The notes under the pieces are model-generated. The model was not told the origin of the DNA. It saw nothing but the letters and a program-made list of their open reading frames with translations, and ran no database searches. This document shows positions 15,417 through 31,705 of a stretch of DNA of 49,630 nucleotides, piece after piece. A program made the position numbers and the translations under genes. The stretch lies in contig WPIF01000021.1 of the NCBI GenBank assembly GCA_009773185.1, positions 1 through 49,630 of the forward strand, in the 5' to 3' direction. Each line of letters starts with the position of its first letter. The stretch's first letter is position 1. Origin of the DNA: Nitrospirota bacterium (GTDB lineage: Bacteria > Nitrospirota > Thermodesulfovibrionia > Thermodesulfovibrionales > UBA1546).

Positions 15417-16151
15417 ATGAAAAATAAGACAAAAAAGGTTGCATTAGTAATCGGGGGGAGCCGTGGGATAGGACGCGCAATAGCCTTGCGCCTTGCCCGT
15501 TCCGGCTTTGATATATGGTTAACTTATAAAAGCAATCACGAGGCTGCCCGGAATGTAAAAGCAGAAATAGAAAAATCAGGAAGCGCCTGTGAGCTGATCG
15601 CCTTCGATGTTTCCAGCCATGAAGAGACAGAAGCTGCATTAGGAAAAAGGGTAGAGGACTTCTCACCTGATGTCATGGTCTACAATTCAGGCATTTCCAG
15701 GGATAATCTCCTTATGTGGATGACAAAAAACGAATGGGACACTGTGCTTTCTACAAACCTTGGCGGATTCTTCAATGTGACCCGCACAATATTATTCTCC
15801 ATGTTAAAGGCAAAAAAAGGGCGCATCGTTGTCATCTCTTCTGCGTCAGGCCAGATAGGGCAGGCAGGCCAGGTCAACTACTCTGCTTCCAAGGCAGGCT
15901 TGATCGGCGCTGCCAGGGCCTTGGCCCGTGAAGTCGGCAAGAAAAACATACTGGTAAATGTGGTTGCTCCAGGGTTTATCGAAACAGACATGACAGAAGG
16001 GCTCCGCAAGGAGCAGGTCTTGAACCTGATACCCCTTAACCGGGTAGGAAAGCCTGAAGACGTAGCATCGGTTGTTGATTTTTTATGTACTGAAGAAGAC
16101 ATGTATATACATGGACAGGTTATCGGTATTAATGGGGGACTGGCAATTTAG
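15417..16151 (+). CDS. 3-oxoacyl-ACP reductase (FabG/ApeQ-like)
   Basis: An NADPH-dependent SDR that reduces 3-oxoacyl-ACP to 3-hydroxyacyl-ACP during chain extension. The 244 residues match FabG length. Visible are the Rossmann motif GGSRGIGRAIA, a VYNSGIS segment in place of the usual NNAG, Asn114, Ser141/Ser142, and the catalytic pair Tyr155 and Lys159 (YSASKAG). The C-terminus EDMYIHGQVIGINGG is also FabG-like. It is the first gene of the cluster and fills the ketoreductase role of ApeQ in aryl-polyene systems. A housekeeping FabG role is unlikely because no other fab genes of the normal set (fabD, fabH, acc) are here. Confidence 0.9.
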   Translation: MKNKTKKVALVIGGSRGIGRAIALRLARSGFDIWLTYKSNHEAARNVKAEIEKSGSACELIAFDVSSHEETEAALGKRVEDFSPDVMVYNSGISRDNLLMWMTKNEWDTVLSTNLGGFFNVTRTILFSMLKAKKGRIVVISSASGQIGQAGQVNYSASKAGLIGAARALAREVGKKNILVNVVAPGFIETDMTEGLRKEQVLNLIPLNRVGKPEDVASVVDFLCTEEDMYIHGQVIGINGGLAI

Positions 16152-16192: not shown

Positions 16193-17695
16193 ATGAAAAA
16201 ATATGACGATATAGTTGTCGGAAGCGGTATCAGCGGCATGACAATGTCCCTTATCCTCGGGATGAACAGGCGCAAGGTGCTGTTGCTGGAGAAAAACCCG
16301 CATATCGGCGGGTCCATGGCCAGGTTCTATAAGGACGGCATTCCATTTGATACAGGGTTCCATTTTACCGGCGGGCTCCATAAAGGCGGGATTCTGTATA
16401 ATATGCTGTCAATCCTGGGAATCAATGACTTGGTAGAGCCGATTTTCCTGTCTGAAGACAATGCCAACGTCTTTATCTTTGAAGCGGAGAACAAACACTA
16501 TAACGTCCCTTATGGGATAACAAAGATAAAAGAAAGACTTAAAGGCTATTTTCCTGAAGAATCAGCTGCCATAGACAGTTATTTTGATAAGGTCAAATAT
16601 GTCTGCGAACAAACGCCTTCGATGAACCTGCACAACCTTATGTCTCTGCATAACCACATAAATGAAGACAGCGTTACTTTAGATGAGGTATTGAATGAAC
16701 TGACCCGCAACCCTGTGCTGAAGGCTTTATTGTCCTGCTTTGCCATGTGCTATGGGGTCAGGCCGGATGAGATTTCTTTTGCCAATCACAGCAGAATGTG
16801 CATCGGGCTTTACGAATCGGTTGCGCGGGTTAAGGGCGGCGGGGCGGCATTTGTGAATACCTTCAGAACGAAATTTAAAGACTATGCCGTTGAAGTCAGC
16901 AGCGGCAAATATATTGCTGAGCTGGCAGACGTTCGTGACGACAGGGTAGGCCGTTTTATATTGAATACCGGCGAAGAAGTTTCATGTGACAATTGCATAT
17001 TCACTATACATCCCAAGGAAATTTTAAAAGTATTGCCGCAAAAATATTTGAGCCGTGCCTTTATAGACAGGGTTTCATCGTTTGAGTCTTCCACGGGATT
17101 CTTTTCTGTGTTTGCAGCGCTGGAGCAGGGATATGAAGAGCCTGATTTTGATGCAAATATAGTTACCATCCTTCCGGATTATGACATAAATCAATTACTG
17201 GACCCGGCACATAAGGGGCCGTCTGCTTTAGTCCTTATCAAATCCATTGAACATGCAGGGGGCAAAACTTACAAGGTAATAAGTACCTTTGAACCTTCTT
17301 ATTTAGAAGATGTTGAGGCCTGGAAGAATACAAAGACAGGCAGCAGGCCCAAGGAATATCAGGATTATAAAAACAGGAAGGTTGAAATTACCACGGAGCG
17401 GATATTTAAGGCCTTCCCTCAATACAGAGGCCGCCTTAAGATTATTGATTCAGCGTCTGTACTTACATTCAGGGACTATCTGAATAACCATGACGGCTCA
17501 GCCTATGGAATAAAACAGAAGATAGGCCAGTATAATCTCGTGGGAAAGCTGCCGTTGCGTAACCTGTATGCTGCCGGCCAGAGTTCTCTTCTGCCCGGAA
17601 TAATAGGCGCCATGATGTCATCATTTATTGTCGGACGCTCTATCATTAAAGAGGAGCAGTATAATAAATTCCTGAGTCAAAACCTATGCAATTAA
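16193..17695 (+). CDS. CrtI/retinol saturase-like FAD-dependent oxidoreductase
   Basis: A 500-residue flavoprotein of the phytoene desaturase/carotene isomerase superfamily. It has an N-terminal dinucleotide-binding motif VVGSGISGM, then LLLEKNPHIGGSMARF and DTGFHFTGG, and the C-terminal FAD-binding segment NLYAAGQSSLLPGIIGAMMSS. No carotenoid synthesis genes (crtB, crtE) are present, so a polyene or acyl substrate is more likely than phytoene. Homologues of this type accompany ketosynthases and radical-SAM genes in the ladderane-type clusters proposed for anammox bacteria. Its likely reaction is desaturation, saturation or isomerisation of conjugated double bonds. The end overlaps the next ketosynthase gene by 10 bases. 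Confidence 0.85.
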   Translation: MKKYDDIVVGSGISGMTMSLILGMNRRKVLLLEKNPHIGGSMARFYKDGIPFDTGFHFTGGLHKGGILYNMLSILGINDLVEPIFLSEDNANVFIFEAENKHYNVPYGITKIKERLKGYFPEESAAIDSYFDKVKYVCEQTPSMNLHNLMSLHNHINEDSVTLDEVLNELTRNPVLKALLSCFAMCYGVRPDEISFANHSRMCIGLYESVARVKGGGAAFVNTFRTKFKDYAVEVSSGKYIAELADVRDDRVGRFILNTGEEVSCDNCIFTIHPKEILKVLPQKYLSRAFIDRVSSFESSTGFFSVFAALEQGYEEPDFDANIVTILPDYDINQLLDPAHKGPSALVLIKSIEHAGGKTYKVISTFEPSYLEDVEAWKNTKTGSRPKEYQDYKNRKVEITTERIFKAFPQYRGRLKIIDSASVLTFRDYLNNHDGSAYGIKQKIGQYNLVGKLPLRNLYAAGQSSLLPGIIGAMMSSFIVGRSIIKEEQYNKFLSQNLCN

Positions 17696-18912
17696 ACAGG
17701 GTGGTCATAACAGGGGTGGGGGTTGTTTCCCCTTTTGGGAACGGGGTAGCCGCACTTATGGATGGAATTGAAAAAGGCCGCAGTGCAGTAAAACATATGG
17801 AGGGCTGGGACCAATATACCGGGCTGCGCAGCCATGTCGGGGCGCCGGCTGAATTAATAGATGAAAAAAAGATTCCCCGCCAGAAGAGGCGCTCCATGGG
17901 CCGCATGAGTATTTTTTCTGCCCAGGCAGCAGAAGAGGCGCTTGCTGATGCAGGCCTGGCGCTGTCTGAACTGCCACCATGGCAGACAGGCTGTATTATA
18001 GGTTCAACGATGGGAAGTGCCAAAAGCATTAATGATGCCTTTGAAATAATGCTGCCTGAAAAAGATATCAGCCGGCTTAATTCAGCGATGTTTTTTCAGT
18101 GCATGTCGCACACTGCAGCGGCAAATGTAGCCCAGTACCTTGGATTAAACGGATACATAATGGCCACTGCTGCTGCCTGCGCCTCTTCTCTTCAGGCAAT
18201 CGGCACCGGCTATGACCTTATCAGGCTGGGCAGGCAGGATATATTATTATGCGGAGGAGCAGAGGAACTGCATCCGACAGTCACGGGATCTTTTGACGTG
18301 CTTTTTGCGACTTCAACCGGATATAATCATTCTCCTGAAAAAACACCGAGGCCCTTTGATAAGGACAGGGACGGATTGGTATGCGGAGAAGGAAGCGGTA
18401 TCCTGGTCCTTGAAGAATATAAACGGGCAGTCAGCAGAAAAGCCAGGATTTATGCTGAGATTACGGGCTACAGCACCAGCGGAAACGGTTCCCATGTCAG
18501 CCAGTCAAACAAGGAATCAATGCTCTATTGCATGAAAAAGGCCCTTAGTGAGGCAAATGCAGCGCCGGAAGATATAAGTTATATAAATGCTCATGCTACG
18601 GCAACGCGGCAGGGAGATCAGGAAGAAGCAGAGGCAATCAGGGAACTATTTGGAGATTCTGTCCCTGTCAGCAGCCTTAAGGGATATATTGGCCATACAC
18701 TGGGCGCTTCAGGAGCGACTGAATTGATAGCTTCACTTTTGATGATGGAAAGAGGGGTCATCTACCCGACCCTGAACCTGGACACTGTAAGCCCTGAATG
18801 CGAGGGCATTGGCCATGTTACAAGACAGACAAAAAAAGAGATAAGTTTTATTTTAAAAAACTGTTTTGCCTTTGGCGGTGTTAACGCTGCACTGGCCTGC
18901 AAAAAAATATAA
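17686..18912 (+). CDS. beta-ketoacyl-ACP synthase (FabF/ApeO-like), intact active site
   Basis: Elongates acyl chains by decarboxylative Claisen condensation. The 408 residues cover both thiolase-fold halves. The catalytic triad is complete: Cys165 (TAAACASSLQ), His303 (NAHATATRQGD) and His337 (KGYIGHTLGASG), and the C-terminal gate CFAFGGVNAAL is present. In APE clusters an ApeO-like KS performs the main elongation with a chain-length factor. It overlaps the preceding flavoprotein by 10 bases and is followed 12 bases later by an ACP. Confidence 0.93.
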   Translation: MQLNRVVITGVGVVSPFGNGVAALMDGIEKGRSAVKHMEGWDQYTGLRSHVGAPAELIDEKKIPRQKRRSMGRMSIFSAQAAEEALADAGLALSELPPWQTGCIIGSTMGSAKSINDAFEIMLPEKDISRLNSAMFFQCMSHTAAANVAQYLGLNGYIMATAAACASSLQAIGTGYDLIRLGRQDILLCGGAEELHPTVTGSFDVLFATSTGYNHSPEKTPRPFDKDRDGLVCGEGSGILVLEEYKRAVSRKARIYAEITGYSTSGNGSHVSQSNKESMLYCMKKALSEANAAPEDISYINAHATATRQGDQEEAEAIRELFGDSVPVSSLKGYIGHTLGASGATELIASLLMMERGVIYPTLNLDTVSPECEGIGHVTRQTKKEISFILKNCFAFGGVNAALACKKI

Positions 18913-18924
18913 TTGGAGGCATGA

Positions 18925-19188
18925 ATGACTGAGCAGGAAATTATTGATACCATAAACAGGGTATTTGAAGAGTCTTTTGAAATAGAAAAAGAAAAATTGC
19001 AGCCGCAGGCCCATATCTTTACCGACCTCGGGCTGGACAGCCTGGATATTGTTGACCTGATAGTCGCGCTCCAGAAAAGTTTCGGGGTCAATATCCGGAA
19101 TGAGGAAAGCGTCAGAAACATAAGGACCCTGGGGGATGTTTATCAGTTTATTTTAGATATAAAAAACAAGGAACCCAGGAAGAGCTGA
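18925..19188 (+). CDS. acyl carrier protein 1
   Basis: An 87-residue ACP with the phosphopantetheine attachment Ser39 in DLGLDSLDIVDLI. The recognition helix is acidic, while the C-terminal tail is basic (KNKEPRKS). It carries the growing chain for the adjacent ketosynthase and is followed 9 bases later by a PlsC-like acyltransferase, suggesting direct transfer of the finished chain. It is one of three divergent ACPs in the cluster. The ribosome-binding site TTGGAGG precedes its ATG. Confidence 0.95.
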   Translation: MTEQEIIDTINRVFEESFEIEKEKLQPQAHIFTDLGLDSLDIVDLIVALQKSFGVNIRNEESVRNIRTLGDVYQFILDIKNKEPRKS

Positions 19189-19197
19189 TGACCGGGA

Positions 19198-19947
19198 ATG
19201 AAAAGGGTTAAATTATATTTTATGAATTTATATTTTTATAGTTTTTTTATACTGTTTTCCATGATGGTTATCCCTGCCTTAACGCTTTTTGTTGCCTTTT
19301 TGGCAATATTTATACCGCACCGCTATGCCATGAAACGCTTCCGGCGCGCCATAAGCTGGTACGGAAGGGTTATGACACTTATCCCTTTCCCGTTAATCAA
19401 AATCCATTATGAGGACCATTCAAAAAATAACTCCCCTGAACCTTATATATTTGTTTCCAACCACAGGTCATCATCAGACCCTTTTTTGATGTGTGTGCTT
19501 CCTCATGAGGCTATCCAGATTGTGAATGTATGGCCCTTCAATATCCCTGTCCTGGGCATCTATGCCAGGCTTGCAGGCTATCTGAACATCAACAGGATGC
19601 CTTCAGGCTTATTTTTTGACAGGGCCTTAACATTACTGAAAGAGAAGGTCTCTATCATATTTTTCCCTGAAGGAACACGTTCAGGAGGCAAAGAGATTGG
19701 CAATTTCCACGGGTCTGCTTTCAGGCTTGCATTGCAGGCACAGGCGCCGATAGTCCCCATTTGCATATCAGGGAATGAAAACATCCCTCCGAAGGGGTCC
19801 CTGCTCCTGAGGCCGGGGACCATAAGGGTCCGCAGGCTGCCGGCTATTGTCTGGGATGACTATAAAGACATGAATGTGTTTTCATTAAAGAACAGGGTGC
19901 GCGAAATTATAAACAGGGAATTATCCCTGATGGAGAACGGGATATGA
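19198..19947 (+). CDS. PlsC-like 1-acylglycerol-phosphate acyltransferase
   Basis: A 249-residue membrane acyltransferase. A hydrophobic N-terminal region (about 8-40) anchors it to the inner membrane. Motif I is NHRSSSDPF (His89, Asp94, the H-x4-D catalytic pair), motif III is FFPEGTRSGG (Glu158), and motif IV is APIVPICISG. The family transfers acyl groups from ACP or CoA to glycerol-phosphate backbones. Next to ACP1 it could put the cluster's specialised chain onto lysophosphatidate. Whether it accepts another alcohol cannot be seen. Confidence 0.88.
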   Translation: MKRVKLYFMNLYFYSFFILFSMMVIPALTLFVAFLAIFIPHRYAMKRFRRAISWYGRVMTLIPFPLIKIHYEDHSKNNSPEPYIFVSNHRSSSDPFLMCVLPHEAIQIVNVWPFNIPVLGIYARLAGYLNINRMPSGLFFDRALTLLKEKVSIIFFPEGTRSGGKEIGNFHGSAFRLALQAQAPIVPICISGNENIPPKGSLLLRPGTIRVRRLPAIVWDDYKDMNVFSLKNRVREIINRELSLMENGI

Positions 19948-19983
19948 CAGAATTTCATAGTTTAATTCTCACAAGGGAAACAA

Positions 19984-21456
19984 ATGAATAGTTGCCAGAA
20001 CCGCATTTATGGAGCGGAATTCTCCAAAGAGGAAATAGAAGAGGCCGTAAGAAACAACAGGCTTCTCTCTATGGAGATAGAATTTAACCGCAGTTGTAAT
20101 TTCCATTGTGTCTATTGTTATGCGACAAATAATTCGAAGCACGAAAATGAGCTGCGCCGTGAAGAGATCTGCGATGTCATTGTTCAGGCCAAAGAACTTG
20201 GCGCAAAGAAGATCATAATCCTGGGCGGGGAGCCCATGCTGTATTCCCCTATCATGGAGATGATACAGTTCATAAAAAAAGAGGAATTGGATATAGAACT
20301 TTTTACAAACGGCACACATATAACTCTGCCTGTTGCACAGGAACTGCTTAAATACAATGTGACAGTTGTCCTTAAGATGAATACCTTTGATGAAAAGCTC
20401 CAGGATATGCTCTCAGGCAAAAAAGGGGCTTATCAGCAGATACAGACCGCTTTCAGAAACCTGAAAGAGGCAGGCTACCCTTCCGGCTGTCCCATGGGAA
20501 TCAGCACGGTTATCTGCAGGCAGAATATAGATGAACTTGCAAAGATGTGGGAATGGCTGAGGGAGCAAAACATTAATCCCTATTTCGAGATGATAACTCC
20601 TCAGGGAAAAGCCAGGGGAAGCAATTTTTTGGATATTGAAGTCAACCGCATACAGGAGCTTTTTCACGAGATAGCAGAGCTTGACAGGGAGAAATATGGA
20701 TATCAGTGGAACCCTCAGCCGCCTTTGGTAGGCGGGGAGTGCATGAGGCACCGATTCTCCTGTGCTGTAAATTCAGAGGGGTATGTCCAGCCATGCGTTG
20801 GAGTCACAATACCGGTCGGCAATATAAGGGAAAGGAAACTGAAAGATATTATCAGAGACAGCGAGGTTATTCAGGACCTGAAAAATTATAAAGAGACTAT
20901 TAAAGGGCCCTGCGGTGAATGTGTGCAGGTGAATGACTGTTACGGCTGCCGCGGAGCTGCATACCAGATGACAGGAGATTATCTGGCTTCAGATCCCCTA
21001 TGCTGGAAGAATTCAGGCAGACAGAAAGATATTGTCCATCTGCCGGCAGATGCTGCCGGGCTTGTTCCTCACAAGCCGCCCATGCGTTTAGTCAGCAGAT
21101 TAATAGAGGTAAAGGAAAGGTCATCTGTTTCAGAAGTGGAGATCACGGAAGATACAATATTTACCGGAGAAAACGGGAAGCTCGATGATGCCTCCTACAT
21201 AGAGATTATTGCCCAGGCCATAGCAGCTCAAAATGGATTTAAAAATATGGGCAACCGGAAGTCTAAACAGGAAGGCTTTCTGATAGGCGTAAAAAATTTA
21301 GAGATAACAGGCCATGCCGGCATTGGAGACAAGCTGCGCGTGTCTGTTTATAAGGCCGCTAAATACGGCGAGTTCGGCGTCATAAAGGGAGAGGTGTTTA
21401 AAGGAAAGGAGTTAATTGCCAGAGGTGAAATAAAGGTCTGGCATAATGGGAAATGA
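19984..21456 (+). CDS. radical SAM/SPASM protein fused to an ApeP-like hotdog dehydratase
   Basis: A 490-residue two-domain fusion. Residues about 30-230 form a radical-SAM core with the CX3CX2C cluster ligands Cys38, Cys42, Cys45 and the SAM-binding GGEP (81-84). A SPASM-like auxiliary Fe-S region follows with Cys253, 260, 271, 310, 313, 319, 322 and 340. From about 345 the protein becomes a hotdog domain like the ApeP/AasP 3-hydroxyacyl-ACP dehydratases: LVPHKPPMRLVSRLIEV with the conserved His363, ending in ARGEIKVWH. One frame without interruption joins them, so the fusion is real at DNA level. It presumably couples radical modification with dehydration of an ACP-bound 3-hydroxyacyl chain; the radical step is unknown. 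A peptide-maturation role, common for SPASM proteins, is unlikely because no precursor peptide gene is seen. Confidence 0.88.
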   Translation: MNSCQNRIYGAEFSKEEIEEAVRNNRLLSMEIEFNRSCNFHCVYCYATNNSKHENELRREEICDVIVQAKELGAKKIIILGGEPMLYSPIMEMIQFIKKEELDIELFTNGTHITLPVAQELLKYNVTVVLKMNTFDEKLQDMLSGKKGAYQQIQTAFRNLKEAGYPSGCPMGISTVICRQNIDELAKMWEWLREQNINPYFEMITPQGKARGSNFLDIEVNRIQELFHEIAELDREKYGYQWNPQPPLVGGECMRHRFSCAVNSEGYVQPCVGVTIPVGNIRERKLKDIIRDSEVIQDLKNYKETIKGPCGECVQVNDCYGCRGAAYQMTGDYLASDPLCWKNSGRQKDIVHLPADAAGLVPHKPPMRLVSRLIEVKERSSVSEVEITEDTIFTGENGKLDDASYIEIIAQAIAAQNGFKNMGNRKSKQEGFLIGVKNLEITGHAGIGDKLRVSVYKAAKYGEFGVIKGEVFKGKELIARGEIKVWHNGK

Positions 21457-22187
21457 AGATAAAGGCCAAAAAAGTTACGCTGATTTTATTGCTGTTTTTT
21501 TTGTTTTTGTACCCGGGCACGCCGCTATTTCAGCCGTTACAGGGGGAAGGATTCCTGGCAAGGGCCGGGATAAAGGAAGGGATAGAGGTAAGAGGAGAGA
21601 AGAAAAGCGAGGTCTCTGACATATCAGGCCTGTTGCGCAGGCTGGGGGAAAAAATTTCCGCTTTCAAAAGCCTGAAGACAGATTTTATCCAGGAAAAAGA
21701 ATTAGCGATATTCAAAAATAAAATTATCCTGAAAGGCCGGATATATCTTCAAAAGCCTGACAGGCTTGCCTGGCATGTTGATAAGCCCGTTAAATATTCT
21801 GTGGTAATTACAGACAAGTCAATCCGCCAGTGGGATGAGGATACTAACCAGGTGCAGGAAATAGTCCTGGCTAAAAATCCCGTCCTTAAAAATATGCTGA
21901 ATCAGCTGACAGTCTGGTTCTCGGGAAATTACAGCCCGCTTCTGGAAGATAATAATGTGCAGGTATTGCAAAAGTCCCCCTTAATCATTGAGTTTACTCC
22001 CAAGGAAACGAACATTGCCAAAAAGGTTATTAAAAACATTACGATCACATTCAGGGAAGATGAAAAATACCTGAAGCAGATAAGGATTAGGGAGAACAGC
22101 ATGGACGTCACAACGATTATTTTTTTGAACACTGAATTAAACGCACCTGTTAACAGCAGCAGCTTTGAGGTAAAAGGCGGTGTTTGA
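21453..22187 (+). CDS. LolA-like outer-membrane lipoprotein carrier/lipid carrier
   Basis: A 244-residue protein with an N-terminal signal or anchor (about 8-28) and a LolA fold: LKTDFIQEKELAIFKNKI, GRIYLQKPDRLAWHVDKP, SIRQWDEDTNQ, then a C-terminal region with TIIFLNTELNAPV. LolA carries acylated proteins across the periplasm. APE-type clusters encode a dedicated homologue thought to help deliver the lipid product to the outer membrane. It overlaps the preceding gene (ATGA) and the MMPL gene by 8 bases, supporting coupled synthesis of the export set. Confidence 0.85.
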   Translation: MKIKAKKVTLILLLFFLFLYPGTPLFQPLQGEGFLARAGIKEGIEVRGEKKSEVSDISGLLRRLGEKISAFKSLKTDFIQEKELAIFKNKIILKGRIYLQKPDRLAWHVDKPVKYSVVITDKSIRQWDEDTNQVQEIVLAKNPVLKNMLNQLTVWFSGNYSPLLEDNNVQVLQKSPLIIEFTPKETNIAKKVIKNITITFREDEKYLKQIRIRENSMDVTTIIFLNTELNAPVNSSSFEVKGGV

Positions 22188-24567
22188 TAAGCGCTTTGGC
22201 CTGATTCATGACTTTCTGAGGAATAAAAAAAAGCCTGTTCTCTGGATTGTTGTGCTTTTGACCGCAGCTGCAGGCATCGGGCTTCCTTTTTATCAATTTG
22301 AAGGTAATATTGATTTAATGCTCCCGAATGACAGGGACATCCATCGCAGCATAAATTTTTTAAGGGATTCCAAACTCTCTGACAAGGTCATCATCTCGCT
22401 GGTCTTAACCTCTCCTGATAAAACCAGGAAAGACCTTTTTAATGCAGCCGACCAACTGGCAGCGTCACTTCCGCCTTCCTTGTTCAGTAAAGTTATTACA
22501 GGCATCTCTGCCCTGAATGTTATGGATGCCCTCTCTGTTATAAATTATGCGCCCCAGATGCTGGGCGAAAAAGACCTGTCCTTTATAGACAGCCGGATAA
22601 ATGCCGCAGGCATCTCTGAAAAACTGCAGGGGATTTACAGGCAATCGCTGAAACCAGAAAGCATCTTCATGACTTCCATGTCCCGCACCGACCCCCTCGG
22701 GATAAGGCTTCTTCTGCTTGATAAATTAAGGGCGCTTCCTGCCTCCATGGGTTATGACGTCAGTATAGAGGATGGACATTTTGTAAGCCGCGACGGACGC
22801 CACGCATTGCTCATAATCCAGACGCCTGTAGCAATGACGGACTCGCCCGGCTGTAAAAAAATTGTAACTGCCTTGCAGGAGCAGACAGGACGCCTGCCGG
22901 AATATATTTCTGCCGACGTCATTGGCGGCCATCTCCACACCTTCAGCAATGAAAAGGTTATTAAGCGTGATATCCTGGTGGCCTCCACACTCGTATCGGT
23001 TGCATTTCTGCTTTTATTTATTGCCGTTTTCCGTGATATGAGGGTCATACTTGTATTTATAGCTCCGCTGGCTGCAGTTATTCTGTCAATCGGGCTGTCT
23101 TACATTATCCTCGGCAAGATATCTTACCTGGTCATAGGTTTTGGAACAGCAATTGCCGGTATCTCTACTGACTATGGACTCCATGTATACATAGCGGCAA
23201 GGAAAGGCGCCGGAGCCTCGCAAAGAGTCAGCCTTGCAAAACTCTTATTTGTTGATGCAGCAACAACTATATTTGGTTTTAGCGCCCTTTATTTTTCTCA
23301 TATACAGGGGTATCATCAGCTCGCTTCTTTCTCCATATTATGCACCATCTTCTCCCTTGCCCTTGCGCTCTTTATTCTGCCTCTTTTATTATCCATAAAA
23401 AAAGACAAGGTCCTCAACCCGCCTGAGGAAAAGAAACTCGAAAGTCTTTATCTGCACAAAAGACTAATTGTCGGCAGCTGGGCCTTATTAACCCTGGCAG
23501 CCTTATTTTTTTCCTTCAATATCAAATTCGACAGTGAGGTTACCCGGCTTGACGGCAGCGAACCAGAGGTCCTCCGGGCAGAAAAAAACTTCCACGATAC
23601 ATGGGGCGGGAAGAGCAGCCAGGCAATATTTGTAGTAACTGACAAGAACCATGAAGCTGCGCTTGAGACTAATGACAGGATATTTCAGGAGGCAACACAG
23701 GCCATTGGCGCTGAAAACTTTTCGAGCATTGCGGCGTTCTGGTCTTCGGAAAAAACAAGGAAAAAAAATATAGAGAACTGGAACCGGTTCTGGAAAGGCG
23801 AAAGGGAGACAAAATTAAAGAGGCTGATAAGGGAGGAGTCCTTTAAATACCAGTTTTCGGAACAGGCATTTTCCCCTTTCTTCGATAATTTATATAATGG
23901 GACAACCGGCAATAATAACTCCGATGAGTTTTTATCGAGACTAAAAGAACGCTTTGTGCAGGAGAAACAGGATGGGTATCAGATATTATCTTTCTTCCCG
24001 GATAAAAAAGAGCATGTGGATGCCATGGCAGCGCTGAGCGCGCATTATCCCGGGACATTCCTGGTATCCGGCAAGGCCATGTCCAGGGCTATATCCGACT
24101 TTACCGCTAAAGAATTTAAATTTCTGGTGCCGGTTGCACTGGCATTCAACATTGGGATAACATTCTGGTTTTTCAAGAATCTCAAAGAGACCACAATAGC
24201 ATTGGTTCCTCTCATAACAGGCATGACATGGCTTATGGGCTTAATGTCATTGCTCAACCTTCCGCTGAATGTAGTAAGCATACTGGCAGCCATTGTCACC
24301 AGCGGGGTTATCGTGGATTACGGCATCGGCATGACCTATGAGTGCCAGTATGACCTGAAAATAGGGACTGTCATTGCAGTGTCGTTATCCGCTGTTACAA
24401 CCATTATCGGCGCAGGGGTCCTGCTTTTCGCCAAGCACCCTGCCTTATTTTCCACCGCAGCAGCAATGGTTATCTGTCTATTGGCAGGATACCTTTCTTC
24501 TATTACTGTGGTCCCTGCTCTTTGCAGTATTTTTTTAAAACCAAGGATTCAGGAGCAGGCAGCATGA
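22180..24567 (+). CDS. MMPL/RND-family exporter
   Basis: A 795-residue integral membrane protein starting at GTG. It shows the two-fold RND layout: one TM helix (about 20-40), a large periplasmic loop, five clustered TMs (about 265-410), a second lone TM near 430-450, a second loop, and five TMs at the C-terminus (about 645-785). The GTAIAGISTDYGLHVY segment and the later VTSGVIVDYGIGMTYE carry the acidic residues of the proton relay. Members such as HpnN, MmpL and the APE exporter move lipids from the inner membrane. With LolA and the following lipoprotein it forms a plausible export route for the cluster's lipid. Confidence 0.92.
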   Translation: MFDKRFGLIHDFLRNKKKPVLWIVVLLTAAAGIGLPFYQFEGNIDLMLPNDRDIHRSINFLRDSKLSDKVIISLVLTSPDKTRKDLFNAADQLAASLPPSLFSKVITGISALNVMDALSVINYAPQMLGEKDLSFIDSRINAAGISEKLQGIYRQSLKPESIFMTSMSRTDPLGIRLLLLDKLRALPASMGYDVSIEDGHFVSRDGRHALLIIQTPVAMTDSPGCKKIVTALQEQTGRLPEYISADVIGGHLHTFSNEKVIKRDILVASTLVSVAFLLLFIAVFRDMRVILVFIAPLAAVILSIGLSYIILGKISYLVIGFGTAIAGISTDYGLHVYIAARKGAGASQRVSLAKLLFVDAATTIFGFSALYFSHIQGYHQLASFSILCTIFSLALALFILPLLLSIKKDKVLNPPEEKKLESLYLHKRLIVGSWALLTLAALFFSFNIKFDSEVTRLDGSEPEVLRAEKNFHDTWGGKSSQAIFVVTDKNHEAALETNDRIFQEATQAIGAENFSSIAAFWSSEKTRKKNIENWNRFWKGERETKLKRLIREESFKYQFSEQAFSPFFDNLYNGTTGNNNSDEFLSRLKERFVQEKQDGYQILSFFPDKKEHVDAMAALSAHYPGTFLVSGKAMSRAISDFTAKEFKFLVPVALAFNIGITFWFFKNLKETTIALVPLITGMTWLMGLMSLLNLPLNVVSILAAIVTSGVIVDYGIGMTYECQYDLKIGTVIAVSLSAVTTIIGAGVLLFAKHPALFSTAAAMVICLLAGYLSSITVVPALCSIFLKPRIQEQAA

Positions 24568-25226
24568 AACAGTTTGTATCCGGATTCTTTATAGTATTTA
24601 TTGCCGGGTGCAGCAGCATCCCTTTTCAGGAGACTGCCCGTGTTTCTTTGGAATCAGCGGACCCGCAGATAATACTGGAACGTTTCAGGAATAACAGCCC
24701 CGAAAATTTCAGGCTTCTGACTACTGTTGTCTTTGAGTATAACCTGGACAAGCTTTCCGGCATAGGATATGTGGATATCAATACAAGGGAAAAGGCCTTT
24801 ACTGTTGTCTGCATCAACGCAATGGGGGTTAAGCTTTTTGAGGTGTCAGGCGGCAAGGATGGAACGGTCTCTCATTTTACTCTTGAGGAATTAAACAAAA
24901 AAGGTGATTTTGCCGCTGTAATCGGGGAAGACATCAAAAGGATTTACTTTGACTCAGTGCCCTCTTCCGGGGCAACGATAAACAGAAAAAAATTTAAAAT
25001 TATCTTTAACCAGCCGTACGGCCCGGGAATTATGGAGTATGTTTTTGCCGGAACTGACGGAAATATGGCCGAAAAAAAATATTATGAAGACAATATATTA
25101 ATATGGCAGGTTTCCTTTTATGAGTACCGGCAAAAAGACGGGAAGATATATCCCGGCGGAATCATCTTAAACAACTATAAATACGGATACAGCCTTACGG
25201 TAAGGCTGAAGGAGATTCAGGCTTGA
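24564..25226 (+). CDS. lipoprotein, DUF3261-like, of APE-type clusters
   Basis: A 220-residue lipoprotein. The start chosen is the ATG at 24564, which overlaps the MMPL stop (ATGA) and gives a clean signal MKQFVSGFFIVFIAGC with the lipobox Cys at residue 16; a longer in-frame form from 24522 would bury this signal. The mature part is beta-rich with MEYVFAGTDGN and ending KYGYSLTVRLKEIQ. Placement between an MMPL exporter and an ApeI-like dehydratase matches the DUF3261 lipoprotein of aryl-polyene clusters, which likely helps outer-membrane insertion. The DUF number is assigned from context and weak pattern. Confidence 0.65.
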   Translation: MKQFVSGFFIVFIAGCSSIPFQETARVSLESADPQIILERFRNNSPENFRLLTTVVFEYNLDKLSGIGYVDINTREKAFTVVCINAMGVKLFEVSGGKDGTVSHFTLEELNKKGDFAAVIGEDIKRIYFDSVPSSGATINRKKFKIIFNQPYGPGIMEYVFAGTDGNMAEKKYYEDNILIWQVSFYEYRQKDGKIYPGGIILNNYKYGYSLTVRLKEIQA

Positions 25227-25612
25227 GAACCCTTAAAAAAGAGATTGCACAATACATGGCTGACCTGGATGCATCAGGCCAGAAACTGACTGCCAGTTTT
25301 TTATTCCCTGAAGATTTTGTGGGTTTTCAGGGGCACTTCCCCGGCAATAAGATATTGCCGGGTGTCTGCCAGATACAATGCGTCATTTCAATGCTTGAAA
25401 AGTGGAAAAAGAAAAAAATTATCCTGAAAGAGATTGTCCTTGCAAAATTCTTCTCGCCTGTTTCACCCCTGGAGAAATTAACCTGTGAATGCAGGGATAT
25501 TAAAGATACGGAAAAAGAATTTACATTAAAGGCATCTGTCAGCAAAGACGGCAAAAAAATATCGGAATTAAAATTGAGGGTCTCCTTTACAGGAGAGGAA
25601 ATCAAGGCATAG
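25223..25612 (+). CDS. ApeI-like 3-hydroxyacyl-ACP dehydratase (hotdog)
   Basis: A 129-residue FabZ-like hotdog protein. It contains FPEDFVGFQGHFPGNKILPG with the catalytic His38 in GHFPG and the ILPGVCQ helix start. It dehydrates 3-hydroxyacyl-ACP to the trans-2-enoyl form. As there is no enoyl reductase gene in the cluster, repeated use would leave conjugated double bonds, as in aryl polyenes. The start is TTG at 25223, overlapping the lipoprotein stop by 4 bases (TTGA). This is the second dehydratase, besides the ApeP-like fusion. Confidence 0.88.
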   Translation: MRTLKKEIAQYMADLDASGQKLTASFLFPEDFVGFQGHFPGNKILPGVCQIQCVISMLEKWKKKKIILKEIVLAKFFSPVSPLEKLTCECRDIKDTEKEFTLKASVSKDGKKISELKLRVSFTGEEIKA

Positions 25613-26098
25613 ATGAAACTACGAAAGAAAAAATATTACTTCGAACGGGTTGCTGGGGCGCCTGAGCCTGTTACAGTTGAACTCAAGCGGCGCGCCCGTT
25701 TCAGTGAGGTTGATGTTATGGGAGTTGTCTGGCATGGAAGATATCCGGCATATTTCGAAGAGGCGTCAGCGGAAATAGGCAGGCGCTGCGGCCTGTCATA
25801 CAAAGACTTCTATGAGGCAGAATTACGGGCCCCGATTATTGAATTTCATACTGATTATTACAAACCTCTTTTCCTTGATGAGGAGTTTACTATCCGGGCT
25901 GCATTAATCTGGCATGAAGGTTCCCGCATGAATACTGAATACTACCTCTTAAAACAGGACGGGAGCCTTGCCGCAAGCGGGTATACAGTGCAGTTGTTTA
26001 TAGATCCCGACTCATGGGAGGTTTGCATAGTTTCTCCAGGCATGCTGGAGAGGTGCCGCAAAAGGTGGAAGGCAGGTGAGTTCAATTGTCCGGGCTAA
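25613..26098 (+). CDS. 4-hydroxybenzoyl-CoA thioesterase-like (YbgC/ApeK type) hotdog protein
   Basis: A 161-residue single hotdog domain. RARFSEVDVMGVVWHGRYPA is the classical 4HBT motif with Asp34 as likely catalytic residue and His41 nearby; YFEEASAEIGRRCGL follows. It would hydrolyse or transfer acyl-ACP or acyl-CoA, for proofreading or release of the chain. The ATG begins immediately after the preceding TAG with no gap. The 3' end overlaps the next ketosynthase by 13 bases. Confidence 0.85.
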   Translation: MKLRKKKYYFERVAGAPEPVTVELKRRARFSEVDVMGVVWHGRYPAYFEEASAEIGRRCGLSYKDFYEAELRAPIIEFHTDYYKPLFLDEEFTIRAALIWHEGSRMNTEYYLLKQDGSLAASGYTVQLFIDPDSWEVCIVSPGMLERCRKRWKAGEFNCPG

Positions 26099-27219
26099 GA
26101 GCAGTCGTTGTCTCAGCTGATATGGTGACAGCGTATGGCAACGGTATGGATTCCTGCTGGAATAATATACTTTCAGGCAGGACCGCCATCTCCGGATTGA
26201 ACCGGTTTAACACAAAGGCATTTCAGTCTGATTATGCAGCCACTATTGACAGCCTGCAATATCATCAGAAGGATTCTTTAGTGATGCAGATGCTTAAGCC
26301 TCTTTTTGACAGGGCCTCTGTATCTATCCCTGAAGATGCGAAACTTATACTGGCAACAACAAAGGGCGAGATTGACCTTTTAGAAAAAAATATTCTTAAA
26401 GGTACAGGGGAGACGCCGGACTGCAGCCTGACATCTCTGTTAAAAAAGGTCTCTGCCCTCACCAGAGTCAAAGACGCCGGAGTTGTTGTCTCGGCTGCCT
26501 GTGCTTCCTCATCAGCAGCTGTTGCAAGGGCGGCAGCCATGATACGCAGCAAGCGCAGTGACTGCGTGCTGGTAGTTGCATGCGACAGCGTCACTGAATT
26601 TGTTTTTTCAGGGTTTTCTTCTTTGATGGCTCTCGATAAATTCTCTGCCAGGCCTTTTGACAAAAACAGAAAAGGATTGAGCCTGGGAGAGGCAGCAGCC
26701 TTTGTGCTGGTCATGAGCAAGACAAGGGCAAGACAGGAAAAAAGAGAGATACTCGGTGAAATAGCCGGCTGGGGGTTGAGTGATGACGCCAACCACATGA
26801 CAGGGCCCTCCCGTGAAAGTGAAGGCCTGATACTGGCTATAAAAAAGGCACTGAAGACAGCTGCTGCTGATAAAAGCGCTATTGGTTTTATATCAGCGCA
26901 CGGCACAGGAACCGTTTATAATGACGCCATGGAAATGAAGGCGTTTCACTCTGTATTCAAAGATAAAAAAATACCCGTCTATTCCATAAAAGGCGGGATA
27001 GGCCATACCATGGGAGCAGCAGGCATCATCGAAACAATAATAGCGATGAAATCCTTAAGAGAGAAAAGGATACCTCCCACTGTCAACCTGAGGGATACTG
27101 ATGCAGACGCGCGCGGATGGGTTTCTCCTGAGCCATGTCCGGCTGATAAAAGGAAAATGGCTCTATTAACTAATGCGGGCTTCAGCGGTATAAATGCAGC
27201 GCTGGTTCTGGCTGAATAA
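26086..27219 (+). CDS. beta-ketoacyl synthase 2, intact active site
   Basis: A 377-residue ketosynthase beginning with TTG at 26086, overlapping the thioesterase gene by 13 bases. The triad is complete: Cys139 (VVSAACASSSAA), His272 (SAHGTGTVYND) and His307 (KGGIGHTMGAAG). It is shorter and more divergent than the first KS, with shortened N-terminal loops. In APE clusters a second KS (ApeR-like) contributes to initiation or early steps. It is followed after 5 bases by a cysteine-less ketosynthase homologue, suggesting a heterodimer. Confidence 0.9.
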   Translation: MSGLRAVVVSADMVTAYGNGMDSCWNNILSGRTAISGLNRFNTKAFQSDYAATIDSLQYHQKDSLVMQMLKPLFDRASVSIPEDAKLILATTKGEIDLLEKNILKGTGETPDCSLTSLLKKVSALTRVKDAGVVVSAACASSSAAVARAAAMIRSKRSDCVLVVACDSVTEFVFSGFSSLMALDKFSARPFDKNRKGLSLGEAAAFVLVMSKTRARQEKREILGEIAGWGLSDDANHMTGPSRESEGLILAIKKALKTAAADKSAIGFISAHGTGTVYNDAMEMKAFHSVFKDKKIPVYSIKGGIGHTMGAAGIIETIIAMKSLREKRIPPTVNLRDTDADARGWVSPEPCPADKRKMALLTNAGFSGINAALVLAE

Positions 27220-27224
27220 ATTTT

Positions 27225-27905
27225 ATGGCGATTTCTATTTGCGGCATGGGATGGATTAACAATGAGGAGTACGGATGTGTAATGAATGGGATGCGGATTA
27301 ATTACAGGGACAGTTTAAAAGGCAAGGCGCTATCAGGAAAAGAAATATTTTCTTATCCTGTTAAAAATTTCGGCAGGCTTGATAATATTTCCAAACTGAC
27401 CTGCTATGCTGTTGCGCTTGCATTGAAAGACGCAGGGGTCAAGTATTCCATGGGTCATAAACACGATATCGGGATTATCTCAACAAACAAGTCCGGCTCT
27501 CTGCAATCAGACATTCTTTATTTTAAGGATTATCTGGATAGCGGCAGGACATTATCAAGGGGGAATCTCTTTATCTATACCCTGCCGTCAAGTCCACTGG
27601 GTGAAGCAGCCATACATTTTGGCCTTCAGGGCCCTCTGCTTTATGTCACGGCTCCGGATAAACCCCTGCAGGCCGCGCTGGACACGGCATCCGGGATGAT
27701 CCTCCTGGATGAATCCCCTGCAATGCTTGCAGGAATGGCAGAAGAGGATGAAGCTGTTTACTTTGTCCTTGCAAGGAGTTCTGATTCCATGCAGCATGTT
27801 CTGTGCGACGTTACCAGGGCAAGGGCGATACTGGGCAAAGATATGATTTTCTCAAAGATGATAAAAGAATTCTCATCCTTAAAAGAACAGAGAGGTCAAG
27901 AGTGA
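27225..27905 (+). CDS. chain-length-factor-like short ketosynthase homologue (ApeC/PF13723 type), no active Cys
   Basis: A 226-residue protein resembling only the N-terminal half of a ketosynthase. Matches include the SICGMGWI start, LTCYAVALALKDAGV, the THE-like IGIISTNKSGSLQSDI, and PSSPLGEAAIHFGLQGPLLY. Where active enzymes have A-C-[AS]-S, this one reads TAPDKPLQ (Pro144/Asp145), so the nucleophile is gone, and no His motifs exist. This is the pattern of the short ApeC-type chain-length factors that pair with an active KS in aryl-polyene systems. It ends with a 4-base overlap with the next radical-SAM gene. Confidence 0.78.
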   Translation: MAISICGMGWINNEEYGCVMNGMRINYRDSLKGKALSGKEIFSYPVKNFGRLDNISKLTCYAVALALKDAGVKYSMGHKHDIGIISTNKSGSLQSDILYFKDYLDSGRTLSRGNLFIYTLPSSPLGEAAIHFGLQGPLLYVTAPDKPLQAALDTASGMILLDESPAMLAGMAEEDEAVYFVLARSSDSMQHVLCDVTRARAILGKDMIFSKMIKEFSSLKEQRGQE

Positions 27906-29173
27906 AGATAAAACTTATTTATCCCAGGTGGCCGAAATTAAACAGGCAAACAGAGTTTCACCTGCCGCCGCATGGCCCGATTTGCTTTGCTGCTGCTATT
28001 CCCGGCGGCATAGAGATTTCCTTCTGTGACGAAAACGTTCAGCAGATAGATTTTAATGAAAAGGCAGACCTGGTTGCTATTTCTGCCATGCTCACCTGCC
28101 AGATTCCCCGGGGATGGGAGATTGCCGACCAGTACAGGGCAAATGGCATCCCTGTAATATTTGGTGGTATAGGGACAATGCTGCATCATGAAGAGACCAT
28201 GCTGCATGCAGATTCTGTTTTCCTTGGCGAGGCAGAGGGGCGTTTTGAAGAAGTTATAGATGACCTCAGTAAAAATAAACTGAAAAAAACATACAACTAC
28301 CTCAGGGATTTTCCTGACATGCAGTTAGTGGGGCCCGCCAGGCGAAGCATCCTGGAGCGCGACTTATATAACTACCGCGGTGTGCAGATGGTGGACCTCA
28401 TTCACGCTTCCCGCGGCTGCAGGTTTAATTGTTTTCCGTGCTGCACCCCATTTTTAGGGGGGCGCAAATTCAGGCCCAGAGATATTGACGCAGTAATTAA
28501 GGAGCTTGAATCCATAGACAATAACCGCCTGTTCTTCGTGGACAATTCCATGGCGCAGGATGACAAATGGGAAAAGGAACTGTTCAGGGCCCTGATACCC
28601 CTCAAGAAAAAATGGATATCCCATCCCATCAAGGATGATGACGAGATACTGGACCTTGCAGCTGAGGCAGGTTGCTGGTACGTATATCAGGCAATCTTTG
28701 ATACCTCGGACCACATAAGAAAACGCGTTAAACGGCTGCAGGAGCGCGGCATCGGTGTTGAGGGCACGATTATCCTGGGGATGGATGACCATGATGAAGA
28801 TTATATAAAGCGGCTTGTTGATTTCCTTCTTGAGATAAAACTGGACCTGGCTGAGTTTACAATATTGACGCCTTTCCCGCATACCCCTATCAGGGCCACG
28901 CTTGAAGAGGAAAAAAGGATTTTACACAATGACTGGGTCCGGTATACCGGAGGAGAGGTTGTCTTTAAACCGGCAAAGATGAGCATTGATAAATTGCAGG
29001 AGATGTATTATTACTCATGGGATACCTTTTACAGCGATTGCAGCCAGAGCCTCAAAATGGCAAAGCTGTTTCTCAAGGTCATTGAAAAGGAAAAGGCCGA
29101 AGGCATTTATCACGGGAACCGTCTTAGAAAAGGCAGGTGGAGCGCAAACAAAAACATGGGAAAACCTGAATGA
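27902..29173 (+). CDS. cobalamin-type (BchE-like) radical SAM protein 1
   Basis: A 423-residue protein starting at GTG 27902 (GTGA overlap with the preceding gene); a longer in-frame ORF extends upstream but would lie within that gene. The N-terminal 130 residues have the layout of a B12-binding Rossmann domain (VKIKLIYPRWPKLN, DLVAISAML, GIPVIFGGIGT), but the DxHxxG cobalt-ligand motif is not evident. The radical-SAM cluster is Cys173, Cys177, Cys180 (ASRGCRFNCFPCC). Such class enzymes do methylations, ring formations and rearrangements on unreactive carbons. Substrate unknown; an ACP-bound or lipid-bound chain is likely. Confidence 0.85.
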   Translation: MKIKLIYPRWPKLNRQTEFHLPPHGPICFAAAIPGGIEISFCDENVQQIDFNEKADLVAISAMLTCQIPRGWEIADQYRANGIPVIFGGIGTMLHHEETMLHADSVFLGEAEGRFEEVIDDLSKNKLKKTYNYLRDFPDMQLVGPARRSILERDLYNYRGVQMVDLIHASRGCRFNCFPCCTPFLGGRKFRPRDIDAVIKELESIDNNRLFFVDNSMAQDDKWEKELFRALIPLKKKWISHPIKDDDEILDLAAEAGCWYVYQAIFDTSDHIRKRVKRLQERGIGVEGTIILGMDDHDEDYIKRLVDFLLEIKLDLAEFTILTPFPHTPIRATLEEEKRILHNDWVRYTGGEVVFKPAKMSIDKLQEMYYYSWDTFYSDCSQSLKMAKLFLKVIEKEKAEGIYHGNRLRKGRWSANKNMGKPE

Positions 29174-30540
29174 GAATCCTGCTGATCTCATCCAATATAG
29201 CCATGTCGCCATACCCTGTCTATCCGCTCGGCGTCAGCATGATTGCCAGAGCCTTAACAACTGCAGGCCATGAGGTGCGGCAGTTCGATTTCCTTCAGCA
29301 AGACAAATCCATAGATGCCATTGCACAGGAAATCAGGCAGTTCAACCCGGAACTAACCGGAATCTCGGTGCGCAATATTGATAATGTCAATCTCATGAAC
29401 GAACAATACTATATAGAAGTTGTCAAAAATATAGTGAGCAAAATCAGGGAAGTTTCTAAAAGCAAAGTAATAATGGGAGGCGCCGGTTTTTCCCTTATGC
29501 CGGAGCTGATACTTGAAGAGACAGGGGCTGATTACGGCATTGTTGGAGAAGGCGAATCATTAGTGGTCAGTTTTGCAAACAACGCAGCCAGGGGAATTTA
29601 TCCTGCAGAACGCCTCATCGGGCCAGAAACCAGGCTCTCCGGAGCCGAGATCCCCAGTGCAAGGTATGATGAACAACTGATGGAATATTATCTGCACAGC
29701 GGGAATATAATCTCAGTGCAGACAAAACGCGGATGCACCTATAAGTGCGTTTACTGCTCTTACCCGCTGCTGGAAGGCTCTAAAATCCGGCAAAGGGACC
29801 CGAGGGCGGTTGTAGACGATATTGAACTGCTTTTTAACGAGCATAAGGCTAAATATATTTTCTTCATTGATTCTGTATTTAATGATGATGGAGGCGCTTA
29901 CCTTGGCGTGATAAAAGAAATGCTAAGGCGCAAAATAAATGTTCCCTGGACAGGTTTTTTCAAGCCACGGGGGTTGACTGACGAAATCGTAGAGATGATG
30001 AAGCAGACAGGGCTCATCGCCGTTGAGATAGGTTCAGACGCTCCCACTGATATTACATTAAAAAGATTGGGCAAGGCATTTTCTTTTCAGGATATCGTTG
30101 AATGCAACGATCTGTTCGCAAGGCACGGGGTCGCCACATCACACTACTTCATGTTCGGCGGGCCGGGCGAGACAAGGGAAACCGTATATGCCGGGATAGA
30201 AAACATCAAACGCCTGGGAAAATCCGTTATCTTTATCTTCATGGGCATAAGGATTCTGCCTGATACTGCACTTGCAAAAATAGCGATAAACGAAAAAGTT
30301 ATATCTCCTGAAGATGGCATGCTTAAACCAACTTACTATATCTCACCGTCAATTGATAAAAAATGGCTTGAGGAAACCCTTACTGAGGCATTTTCAAAGA
30401 TGAGGCACTGCATATTCCCTCCTGATGCAATAGACGACAGCCTGAGAGTTCTGCATAAAATGGGATATACCGGCACATTATGGGATATGCTGCTTTCCCG
30501 TGATTCCACCAGGCGAAGGAAACGGAATGCCCCAAAATAA
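29170..30540 (+). CDS. cobalamin-type radical SAM protein 2
   Basis: A 456-residue protein overlapping the previous gene by ATGA. Residues 1-145 form a B12-binding-like domain (MRILLISSNIAMSPYPVYPL, VIMGGAGFSLMPE, DYGIVGEGE). The radical-SAM ligands are Cys189, Cys193, Cys196 in TKRGCTYKCVYCSYPL, followed by QRDPRAVVDDIELL and the C-terminal GPGETRETV typical of the BchE-like class. It differs enough from radical-SAM protein 1 to indicate a separate reaction rather than simple duplication. The 3' end overlaps the glycosyltransferase gene by 14 bases. Confidence 0.87.
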   Translation: MRILLISSNIAMSPYPVYPLGVSMIARALTTAGHEVRQFDFLQQDKSIDAIAQEIRQFNPELTGISVRNIDNVNLMNEQYYIEVVKNIVSKIREVSKSKVIMGGAGFSLMPELILEETGADYGIVGEGESLVVSFANNAARGIYPAERLIGPETRLSGAEIPSARYDEQLMEYYLHSGNIISVQTKRGCTYKCVYCSYPLLEGSKIRQRDPRAVVDDIELLFNEHKAKYIFFIDSVFNDDGGAYLGVIKEMLRRKINVPWTGFFKPRGLTDEIVEMMKQTGLIAVEIGSDAPTDITLKRLGKAFSFQDIVECNDLFARHGVATSHYFMFGGPGETRETVYAGIENIKRLGKSVIFIFMGIRILPDTALAKIAINEKVISPEDGMLKPTYYISPSIDKKWLEETLTEAFSKMRHCIFPPDAIDDSLRVLHKMGYTGTLWDMLLSRDSTRRRKRNAPK

Positions 30541-31705
30541 TTCCATTGCACCGGAGCAAATCTGGTGTGCCATACCTGTTTTTAACAATAAGGTGGCCTT
30601 AAGAGCTGTTGCAGCCGGATGCCGTTCCATATTAAAAAACGTTGTTGTTGTTGACGATGGCAGCACAGATACAGATGTTGCATCTTTACTTCTTGATTTA
30701 GATGTTGTTGTCCTGAAGCATGAAAGGAATCTCGGCAAAGGGCAAGCCATCCTGACTGCCTCACGGTATATAGAAGCACGGGACGGCTATTATATGATAA
30801 CCATTGATGCAGACGGGCAACACTATCCTGATGACATTAAAAAATTTATTCCTCTTATATATGAAGGCGGTTCAAATATAATTATCGGCTGCAGGAATTT
30901 CAATACAGATAATATCCCAGGGAAAAGCCGCTTCGGAAGGAAATTTGCCAATTTCTGGCTGCGTGTGGAAACCGGGCTGGAGATAGATGACTGCCAAAGC
31001 GGTTTCCGCGCATATCCTGTCCGGTATCTGAACCAATTGAATTTCAAGGGCTTCCGCTACGATTTTGAAGCAGAGGTCCTGGCAAAGGCTGCATGGGCAG
31101 GGCTGCAGTTAAAGACCATTATGATTGATGTCCACTATCCCAAACCCGAAGAACGCGTCTCCAGCTTTAAGCCTTTTATGGACAACCTGCGCCTTTCACT
31201 CATTCACTCCATGCTGGTTGGAAGACGTTTACTGCCCCTGAGGCATAAGCCGCTCGTAAATACCCCCCAAAAAACAGACCTCTCAATACTCCGGCATCCC
31301 GGCAAATTCCTGAAGATGCTTCTTCAGGAAAACACAACCCCGGAAGGATTGGCAATGGCTGCAGCCGTGGGAACTTTTCTTGCCATACTGCCTCTGCTGT
31401 TTATCCATACATTTGTAATTATATATGTAGCTGCCCGCCTGAACTTAAATAAAATCGTTGCCGTTAATGTCCAGCATTTCTTTATGCCGCCTTTTGTGCC
31501 GGCCCTGTGCATCGAAGCAGGTTATTTCATAAGGCACGGCCGCTGGCTGACAGATATTTCCTTTGCAACTGTCTTCTCACAGTTTTCAGACCGCCTGATT
31601 GAATGGTTCCTGGGTTCTTTAATCATCGCGCCGGCCGGAGCTGTCCTTATGGGCGCTGTAGTTTTTATTTCAGCATCCCTGATAAAAAAAAGAAGGCAGC
31701 GCTGA
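30527..31705 (+). CDS. family 2 glycosyltransferase with C-terminal DUF2062 membrane domain
   Basis: A 392-residue protein. The start at ATG 30527 is preferred over an in-frame ATG 27 bases upstream because AAGGAAA lies in the right place. The GT-A domain (about 10-235) has PVFNN, VVVVDDGSTDTDV and the metal-binding DADGQHYPDD, as in dolichol-phosphate mannose synthase-like enzymes. The C-terminal part (about 255-390) is a DUF2062 domain with three or four hydrophobic segments (LAILPLLFIHTFVIIYVAA). APE-type clusters encode a glycosyltransferase and an acyltransferase, sometimes fused; here they are consecutive and overlap by one base. It probably glycosylates the lipid head group. Confidence 0.87.
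   Translation: MPQNNSIAPEQIWCAIPVFNNKVALRAVAAGCRSILKNVVVVDDGSTDTDVASLLLDLDVVVLKHERNLGKGQAILTASRYIEARDGYYMITIDADGQHYPDDIKKFIPLIYEGGSNIIIGCRNFNTDNIPGKSRFGRKFANFWLRVETGLEIDDCQSGFRAYPVRYLNQLNFKGFRYDFEAEVLAKAAWAGLQLKTIMIDVHYPKPEERVSSFKPFMDNLRLSLIHSMLVGRRLLPLRHKPLVNTPQKTDLSILRHPGKFLKMLLQENTTPEGLAMAAAVGTFLAILPLLFIHTFVIIYVAARLNLNKIVAVNVQHFFMPPFVPALCIEAGYFIRHGRWLTDISFATVFSQFSDRLIEWFLGSLIIAPAGAVLMGAVVFISASLIKKRRQR

Follow-up and report, generated by a model that had tools for sequence, protein, structure and literature searches.

A ladderane-type radical SAM/SPASM enzyme fused to the ApeP-type half of a putative split dehydratase in a Nitrospirota gene cluster

The window, i.e., the whole stretch of 49,630 nucleotides of Nitrospirota DNA that was analysed, carries a biosynthetic gene cluster on its plus strand. 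The cluster begins with genes for a FabG-type ketoreductase (15417-16151; Pfam match, conserved in the cluster), a CrtI/CrtD-like FAD oxidoreductase, known as the 'phytoene desaturase' of ladderane-type clusters (16193-17695; family matches and cluster conservation), the ketosynthase KS1 with its active-site Cys present (17686-18912; family matches), an acyl carrier protein (ACP, 18925-19188; PF00550) and a PlsC-type acyltransferase (19198-19947; PF01553). These are followed by the fusion gene that is the subject of this work (19984-21456), a LolA-type carrier (21453-22187; PF03548), an MMPL/HpnN-like exporter (22180-24567; weak TIGR03480 match and synteny), a lipoprotein-like protein, an ApeI-type hotdog protein (25223-25612), a 4HBT-type thioesterase (25613-26098; domain match), the ketosynthases KS2 and KS3 (26086-27905; domain match), two B12-binding radical SAM proteins (27803-30540), and a GT2-DUF2062 glycosyltransferase with a lipid-A-type acyltransferase (30500-32607; domain matches). 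The second B12-binding protein (29170-30540) matched TIGR04072 (rSAM_ladder_B12) with 636 bits against a cut-off of 360. KS3 (27225-27905) follows KS2, is of half length, has no evident active-site Cys, resembles a chain-length factor and is conserved in relatives. The window's cluster showed no enoyl reductase.

Several further features were observed in and around the cluster. A phenylacetate-CoA-ligase-like (PCL) gene is absent between the PlsC gene and the fusion gene (19947-19984) here and in the related loci L001-L003; it is present at this position in many relatives (L004, L019, L022) and also lies upstream of the anammox radical SAM gene. Downstream of the cluster, a HemN-like radical SAM gene (32939-34351) had TIGR04107 (HutW) as its best NCBIfam match, below the cut-off, and such a gene also lies beside the cluster in L022 (6211-7575). 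HemN-like enzymes include polyketide cyclopropanases. Two more B12-binding radical SAM genes (41974-43407 and 44837-46261) flank an AMP ligase gene (43404-44840), so that radical SAM genes total six within about 30 kb of the window. An ammonia lyase, i.e., an aryl starter gene, was not seen among the genes scanned in the window. On the minus strand, 46267-49467 holds BcrAD/HgdD-type genes (2-hydroxyglutaryl-CoA dehydratase/benzoyl-CoA reductase), and a similar trio flanks the cluster of L022 (550-3588). An AAA/DUF4143 gene (36814-38007) between two cluster ketosynthase genes is probably a later insert.

The fusion gene encodes a protein of 490 amino acids in one uninterrupted plus-strand frame, from the ATG at 19984 to the TGA at 21456. 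A Shine-Dalgarno-like GGGA stretch lies 5' of the gene, its stop codon overlaps the start of the LolA gene, and it is present in a single copy in the window's own genome. In the protein, residues 1-345 form an intact radical SAM/SPASM enzyme, which a short linker connects to an ApeP-type hotdog domain (residues 346-490; 21019-21453). Pfam detected Radical_SAM (PF04055) at residues 32-191 (9e-25, 88 bits), SPASM (PF13186) at residues 253-313 (2e-8, above cut-off) and ApeP-like (PF22817) at residues 357-442, the last barely over its cut-off (27.9 versus 27.0 bits). Thus, the one-frame fusion claimed in the earlier note was confirmed, as were the motifs given there (the CX3CX2C core, located at residues 38-45, the eight additional Cys of the SPASM region and LVPHKPPM, located at residues 361-368) and the placement of the C-terminal part in the ApeP/hotdog superfamily, to which the fold match with 6qsr_B described below also points. 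In the AlphaFold model, confidence was low at the domain junction (residues 303-366), which counts against the joint function of the two halves that is preferred below.

The radical half carries the core motif C38-x3-C42-x2-C45 (20095-20118), invariant in 52/52 relatives, and a SAM-binding GGEP motif that is likewise invariant among relatives. The eight Cys of the SPASM region (20740-21003) are at positions 253, 260, 271, 310, 313, 319, 322 and 340. Of these eleven Cys, ten (the three of the core and seven of the SPASM region) were invariant in the 52 relatives, and C260 was retained in 49 of them. The eight SPASM Cys are therefore enough for full ligation of two auxiliary [4Fe-4S] clusters. 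In fold comparison, the radical half resembled SuiB, SkfB and anSME (Z 21-24). Its best NCBIfam match was the heme synthase AhbD (TIGR04545), with 141.9 bits far under the equivalog cut-off of 500; identity with heme b synthase AhbD was thus rejected. No cut-off of a known SPASM equivalog was reached in the best 25 of the 82 matching families. The reading as a maturase of RiPP peptides was examined via family models only, and the cluster itself is lipid/polyketide-like. AhbD is an oxidative enzyme, and the auxiliary clusters of anSME take an electron away from the substrate. Given the full Cys set for two auxiliary clusters, the SuiB/SkfB/anSME fold and AhbD as the best, if sub-cut-off, score, dehydrogenation is the likeliest reaction, and the radical half is predicted from these sequence features to probably dehydrogenate (desaturate) the acyl chain. 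The substrates of related SPASM enzymes are mostly peptides or porphyrins, which counts against this reading.

FabZ-type active sites are each built from the His of one chain and the Glu of the other. In the fused hotdog domain, the FabZ-type Glu, E407 (21202-21204), and Q411 were invariant in all 27 aligned fused proteins, and the GHFP stretch with the catalytic His was absent from all fused hotdogs aligned. The His of LVPHKPPM is unconserved, as many relatives have PQ there, and it is a different residue from the catalytic His. A complete dehydratase, with His and Glu in one chain, was therefore rejected. Residues 364-490 matched the folds of Kuenenia amxFabZ (8ayd, Z 17.5) and ApeP (6qsr_B, VIA Z 16.8), and 6qsr_B was also the top hotdog match of the fused domain in Foldseek; an H48N mutant of Scalindua amxFabZ is likewise contained in the PDB. 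Since the catalytic His is lacking, the fused hotdog should need an ApeI-like partner and would be no dehydratase alone, so that its earlier description as an acyl-ACP dehydratase holds for half of an active site at most. The candidate partner is encoded by the fourth gene downstream of the fusion gene (25223-25612, plus strand; FabA/ApeI Pfam matches). Its H38 (25334-25336), in the stretch GHFPGNKILPG, was invariant in 21/21 and 20/20 sequences. The position of the Glu is occupied by Gln; in the aligned set it was mostly Gln, also Leu, Thr, Lys or Ala, and Glu itself was found only in L024 and L027. The AlphaFold model of the ApeI-like protein (pLDDT 93) matched Kuenenia amxFabZ (Z 15.5) and ApeI (6qsr_A, Z 15.1), which were tied. 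By these residues, the fused hotdog is the predicted Glu half and the product of 25223-25612 the predicted His half of a split dehydratase. A heterodimer of ApeI and ApeP with a single active site is already known (PMC8041823; PDB 6qsr), and by analogy the fused ApeP and the ApeI-like protein would form a heterodimer with one active site.

A scan of a species-level genome collection yielded 27 full-length fused relatives with 44-97% identity from six or more phyla, belonging to Nitrospirota, Thermodesulfobacteriota, Deferribacterota, Omnitrophota, Lentisphaerota, Kiritimatiellota/Verrucomicrobiota and Planctomycetota. These relatives retain the gene order of the window. When a profile of the 27 was run over 1,658 genomes sampled from five phyla, the full-length fusion was found in 47 genomes. 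In the own phylum, Nitrospirota, 15 of 346 genomes were positive (11 fused, 4 free). The phylum of an Omnitrophota genome gave 10/237 positive genomes (9 fused and 2 free copies), that of Victivallis 30/338 (25 full fused, 4 cut by contig ends, 1 free-looking), Planctomycetota 9/392 (2 fused, 7 free) and that of a Desulfobulbaceae genome 19/345 (18 free and one fused fragment). One fused ORF with its radical domain matched in part only (L088 in G058) was set aside. In G1566, the radical SAM match lies inside an open frame of 803 residues, which may represent a further fusion of this enzyme. A restriction of the fusion to one lineage was ruled out by the fused copies across phyla. That two genes were joined by an assembly or frameshift artefact has next to no probability: nothing was seen in its favour, and independent assemblies repeat the full-length fused frame in 27 independent loci and in 47 of the sampled genomes, by which chance and sequencing error are excluded as well. 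Pfam misses the hotdog in the fused relatives L011, L019 and L026 and scores it below cut-off in L024; for this reason, the fusion may have escaped notice.

Free-standing radical enzymes were found in anammox bacteria, Desulfobulbales and Chromatiaceae. Since these do without the fusion, a covalent link is not required, which counts against the preferred explanation. The separate proteins cluster together nonetheless: an ApeP homologue was located about 6-17 kb away on the same contig and strand in seven of the checked genomes with a free enzyme, and an ApeI with GHFP was present in the same cluster in 5/5 free-enzyme regions then fetched. One cluster (L025) holds both a free ApeP and a free radical SAM enzyme. 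The free ApePs of the unfused relatives keep the Glu, and the catalytic GHFP His is missing in all of them. Two free-enzyme loci (L105 and L107) share the order PCL, radical SAM and, further on, FabG, ApeP, LolA, MMPL and, further on again, ApeI, thioesterase, KS2; the fusion point in the window is where two blocks of these loci meet, namely PCL-radical SAM and the block that runs from ApeP-LolA-MMPL to ApeI-thioesterase-KS2. The earlier note had taken the fusion to tie radical chemistry strongly to chain building. This is supported by the clustering of the unfused genes and by the conservation of the fusion across phyla, with the reservation that the fusion is not obligatory. The ACP-bound 3-hydroxy or enoyl chain that the note proposed as the substrate is a candidate.

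The maximum likelihood (ML) tree of the radical domain required three changes between the fused and the free state. A single fused clade was not rejected by the AU test (p-AU 0.126), and long branches meet in the tree; a single origin of the fusion is thus neither established nor rejected. Purple sulfur bacteria of the genera Thiorhodococcus and Allochromatium (L039, L044) carry the Desulfobulbus-type cluster, and horizontal transfer is suggested since their copies nest within the Desulfobulbus-type clade. With respect to function, the fusion might merely couple the expression levels of two cluster proteins with active sites that share no substrate. Such a role would be compatible with the existence of long-lived unfused forms and with the fusion of ApeI and the ligase ApeH that Acinetobacter carries (PMC8041823). 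However, Nitrospirota, Omnitrophota, Verrucomicrobiota/Lentisphaerota and some Planctomycetota all retain a fusion to the same half with a short linker, and one fused clade was not rejected, so that mere coupling of expression is considered quite improbable.

The strongest clue to the pathway, which the earlier note overlooked, is that the radical half corresponds to the SPASM radical SAM enzyme encoded in ladderane clusters. Two anammox proteins were compared, and the anammox radical SAM enzyme was 47% identical to the window's radical domain; the best other match of this domain within the window's own genome reached just 66 bits. A free relative was found in five Planctomycetota genomes that carry hydrazine synthase alpha and are therefore taken as anammox genomes. 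Hydrazine synthase was not found in the window's genome, which is thus not an anammox genome. In the anammox locus L085, the order is PCL, radical SAM, B12-radical SAM, FabG, ACP, FabZ, one gene without assignment, MMPL, CrtI-like and GT2, in agreement with the published order from kuste3343 to kuste3335 in K. stuttgartiensis (PMC2649909, PMC4790861). By synteny, the anammox counterpart of the window's radical half is Kuste3343. The dehydratase of the anammox cluster is a complete FabZ carrying both His and Glu. Orthologues of the radical SAM, CrtI-like, FabG and ACP genes of the anammox cluster are present in the window's cluster, which by its gene content is of the ladderane type. Ladderane-type clusters with a function that is not known have already been reported outside anammox bacteria, in many phyla (PMC9902471), and the window's cluster belongs among these.

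Taken together, our preferred explanation is that a ladderane-type SPASM radical SAM enzyme, fused to the ApeP half and paired with ApeI, dehydrogenates an ACP-bound chain at the dehydration step, a reading that we regard as about an even bet. The ApeP half and the ApeI-like protein would build one dehydratase site, with the His from ApeI and the Glu from ApeP. In an iterative type II synthase, the radical enzyme would thereby be docked where the ACP-bound chain is dehydrated, a placement that is suggested by the link to ApeP; the chain builder would be free of enoyl reductase, none having been seen in the cluster. The core cluster would generate a 5'-deoxyadenosyl radical, which would abstract hydrogen from the acyl chain, and the second electron would be handed to the two auxiliary clusters in an oxygen-free dehydrogenation. 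Unsaturation would in this way be added to a polyene-type acyl-ACP, the CrtI-like and B12-radical SAM enzymes would process it further, and a membrane-linked polyunsaturated product may result. It is doubtful that the fusion marks a step which is at once an in-line radical desaturation (or cyclisation) of the ACP-bound chain between rounds of dehydration and the anaerobic polyene-forming step of anammox ladderane synthesis.

At the same place on the ACP-bound chain, the radical domain could instead form C-C bonds in a ladderane-like ring closure. The orthologue sits in the anammox ladderane cluster, and for ladderanes it has been suggested that a polyunsaturated chain is cyclised by radical chemistry (PMC2649909). 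However, many non-anammox phyla in which ladderanes are not known have the same enzyme, the window's host is no anammox bacterium, and acyclic products were found in Desulfotalea, which is said to carry homologues of Kuste3343/3342 (PMC2649909). Ring closure is thus rather unlikely. The radical enzyme might also act on a starter unit or an unbound small molecule, with ApeP as a mere tether to the synthase complex. In many relatives and in anammox bacteria, the radical SAM gene is immediately preceded by a PCL-like gene, which would fit a special starter. Yet the fusion persists where this gene is missing, as in the window and L001-L003, and the invariant Glu argues for a catalytic hotdog rather than a dock alone; action on a starter is considered unlikely. 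Dehydrogenation of the ACP-bound chain remains the preferred explanation.

The cluster type and both domains were already known. A paper describing a radical SAM/SPASM-ApeP fusion was not found in the literature searched, which does not prove that none exists. The construction of ladderanes by anammox bacteria is an unsolved problem, and attempts to express the candidate genes in a heterologous host did not succeed (PMC4790861). The natural fusion links one radical enzyme of this problem to the dehydratase/ACP step and names ApeI as its partner, and it suggests that the growing chain is what the radical step acts on in these lipid pathways. Versions of the system are available in culturable non-anammox bacteria, e.g., Victivallis vadensis. 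Of the cultured carriers, Victivallis vadensis DSM 14823 (L026) has the fused form, and Desulfobulbus rhabdoformis (L038) and Thiorhodococcus mannitoliphagus (L039) have the unfused one.

Four known systems were compared with the fusion. The SPASM dehydrogenases, decarboxylases and maturases anSME, AhbD, SkfB and SuiB share the radical core, the Cys for two auxiliary clusters and the fold, but act on peptide or porphyrin substrates and have no hotdog domain. Cooperation of a radical SAM enzyme with an iterative KS/DH/KR/ACP chain builder has a precedent in the HemN-like cyclopropanase of jawsamycin and fuelimycin biosynthesis; this cyclopropanase, however, belongs to another radical SAM class, stands alone and yields cyclopropanes (PMC13389473). 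The aryl polyene system resembles the window in its split hotdog dehydratase ApeI:ApeP with one active site (PDB 6qsr; PMC8041823), its KS/KS-like pair, FabG, LolA, MMPL-type exporter, lipoprotein and thioesterase, whereas its ApeP has no radical enzyme attached and the ladderane-type radical SAM set is missing. The anammox ladderane FASII cluster (PMC2649909, PMC4790861) shares the 47% identical radical SAM/SPASM enzyme with the same Cys set and PCL upstream, an adjoining TIGR04072-like B12-radical SAM protein, FabG, ACP, the CrtI-like enzyme, MMPL and a glycosyltransferase. It differs in that its radical SAM enzyme is free-standing, a complete FabZ takes the place of the split ApeI/ApeP, and its host makes ladderanes.
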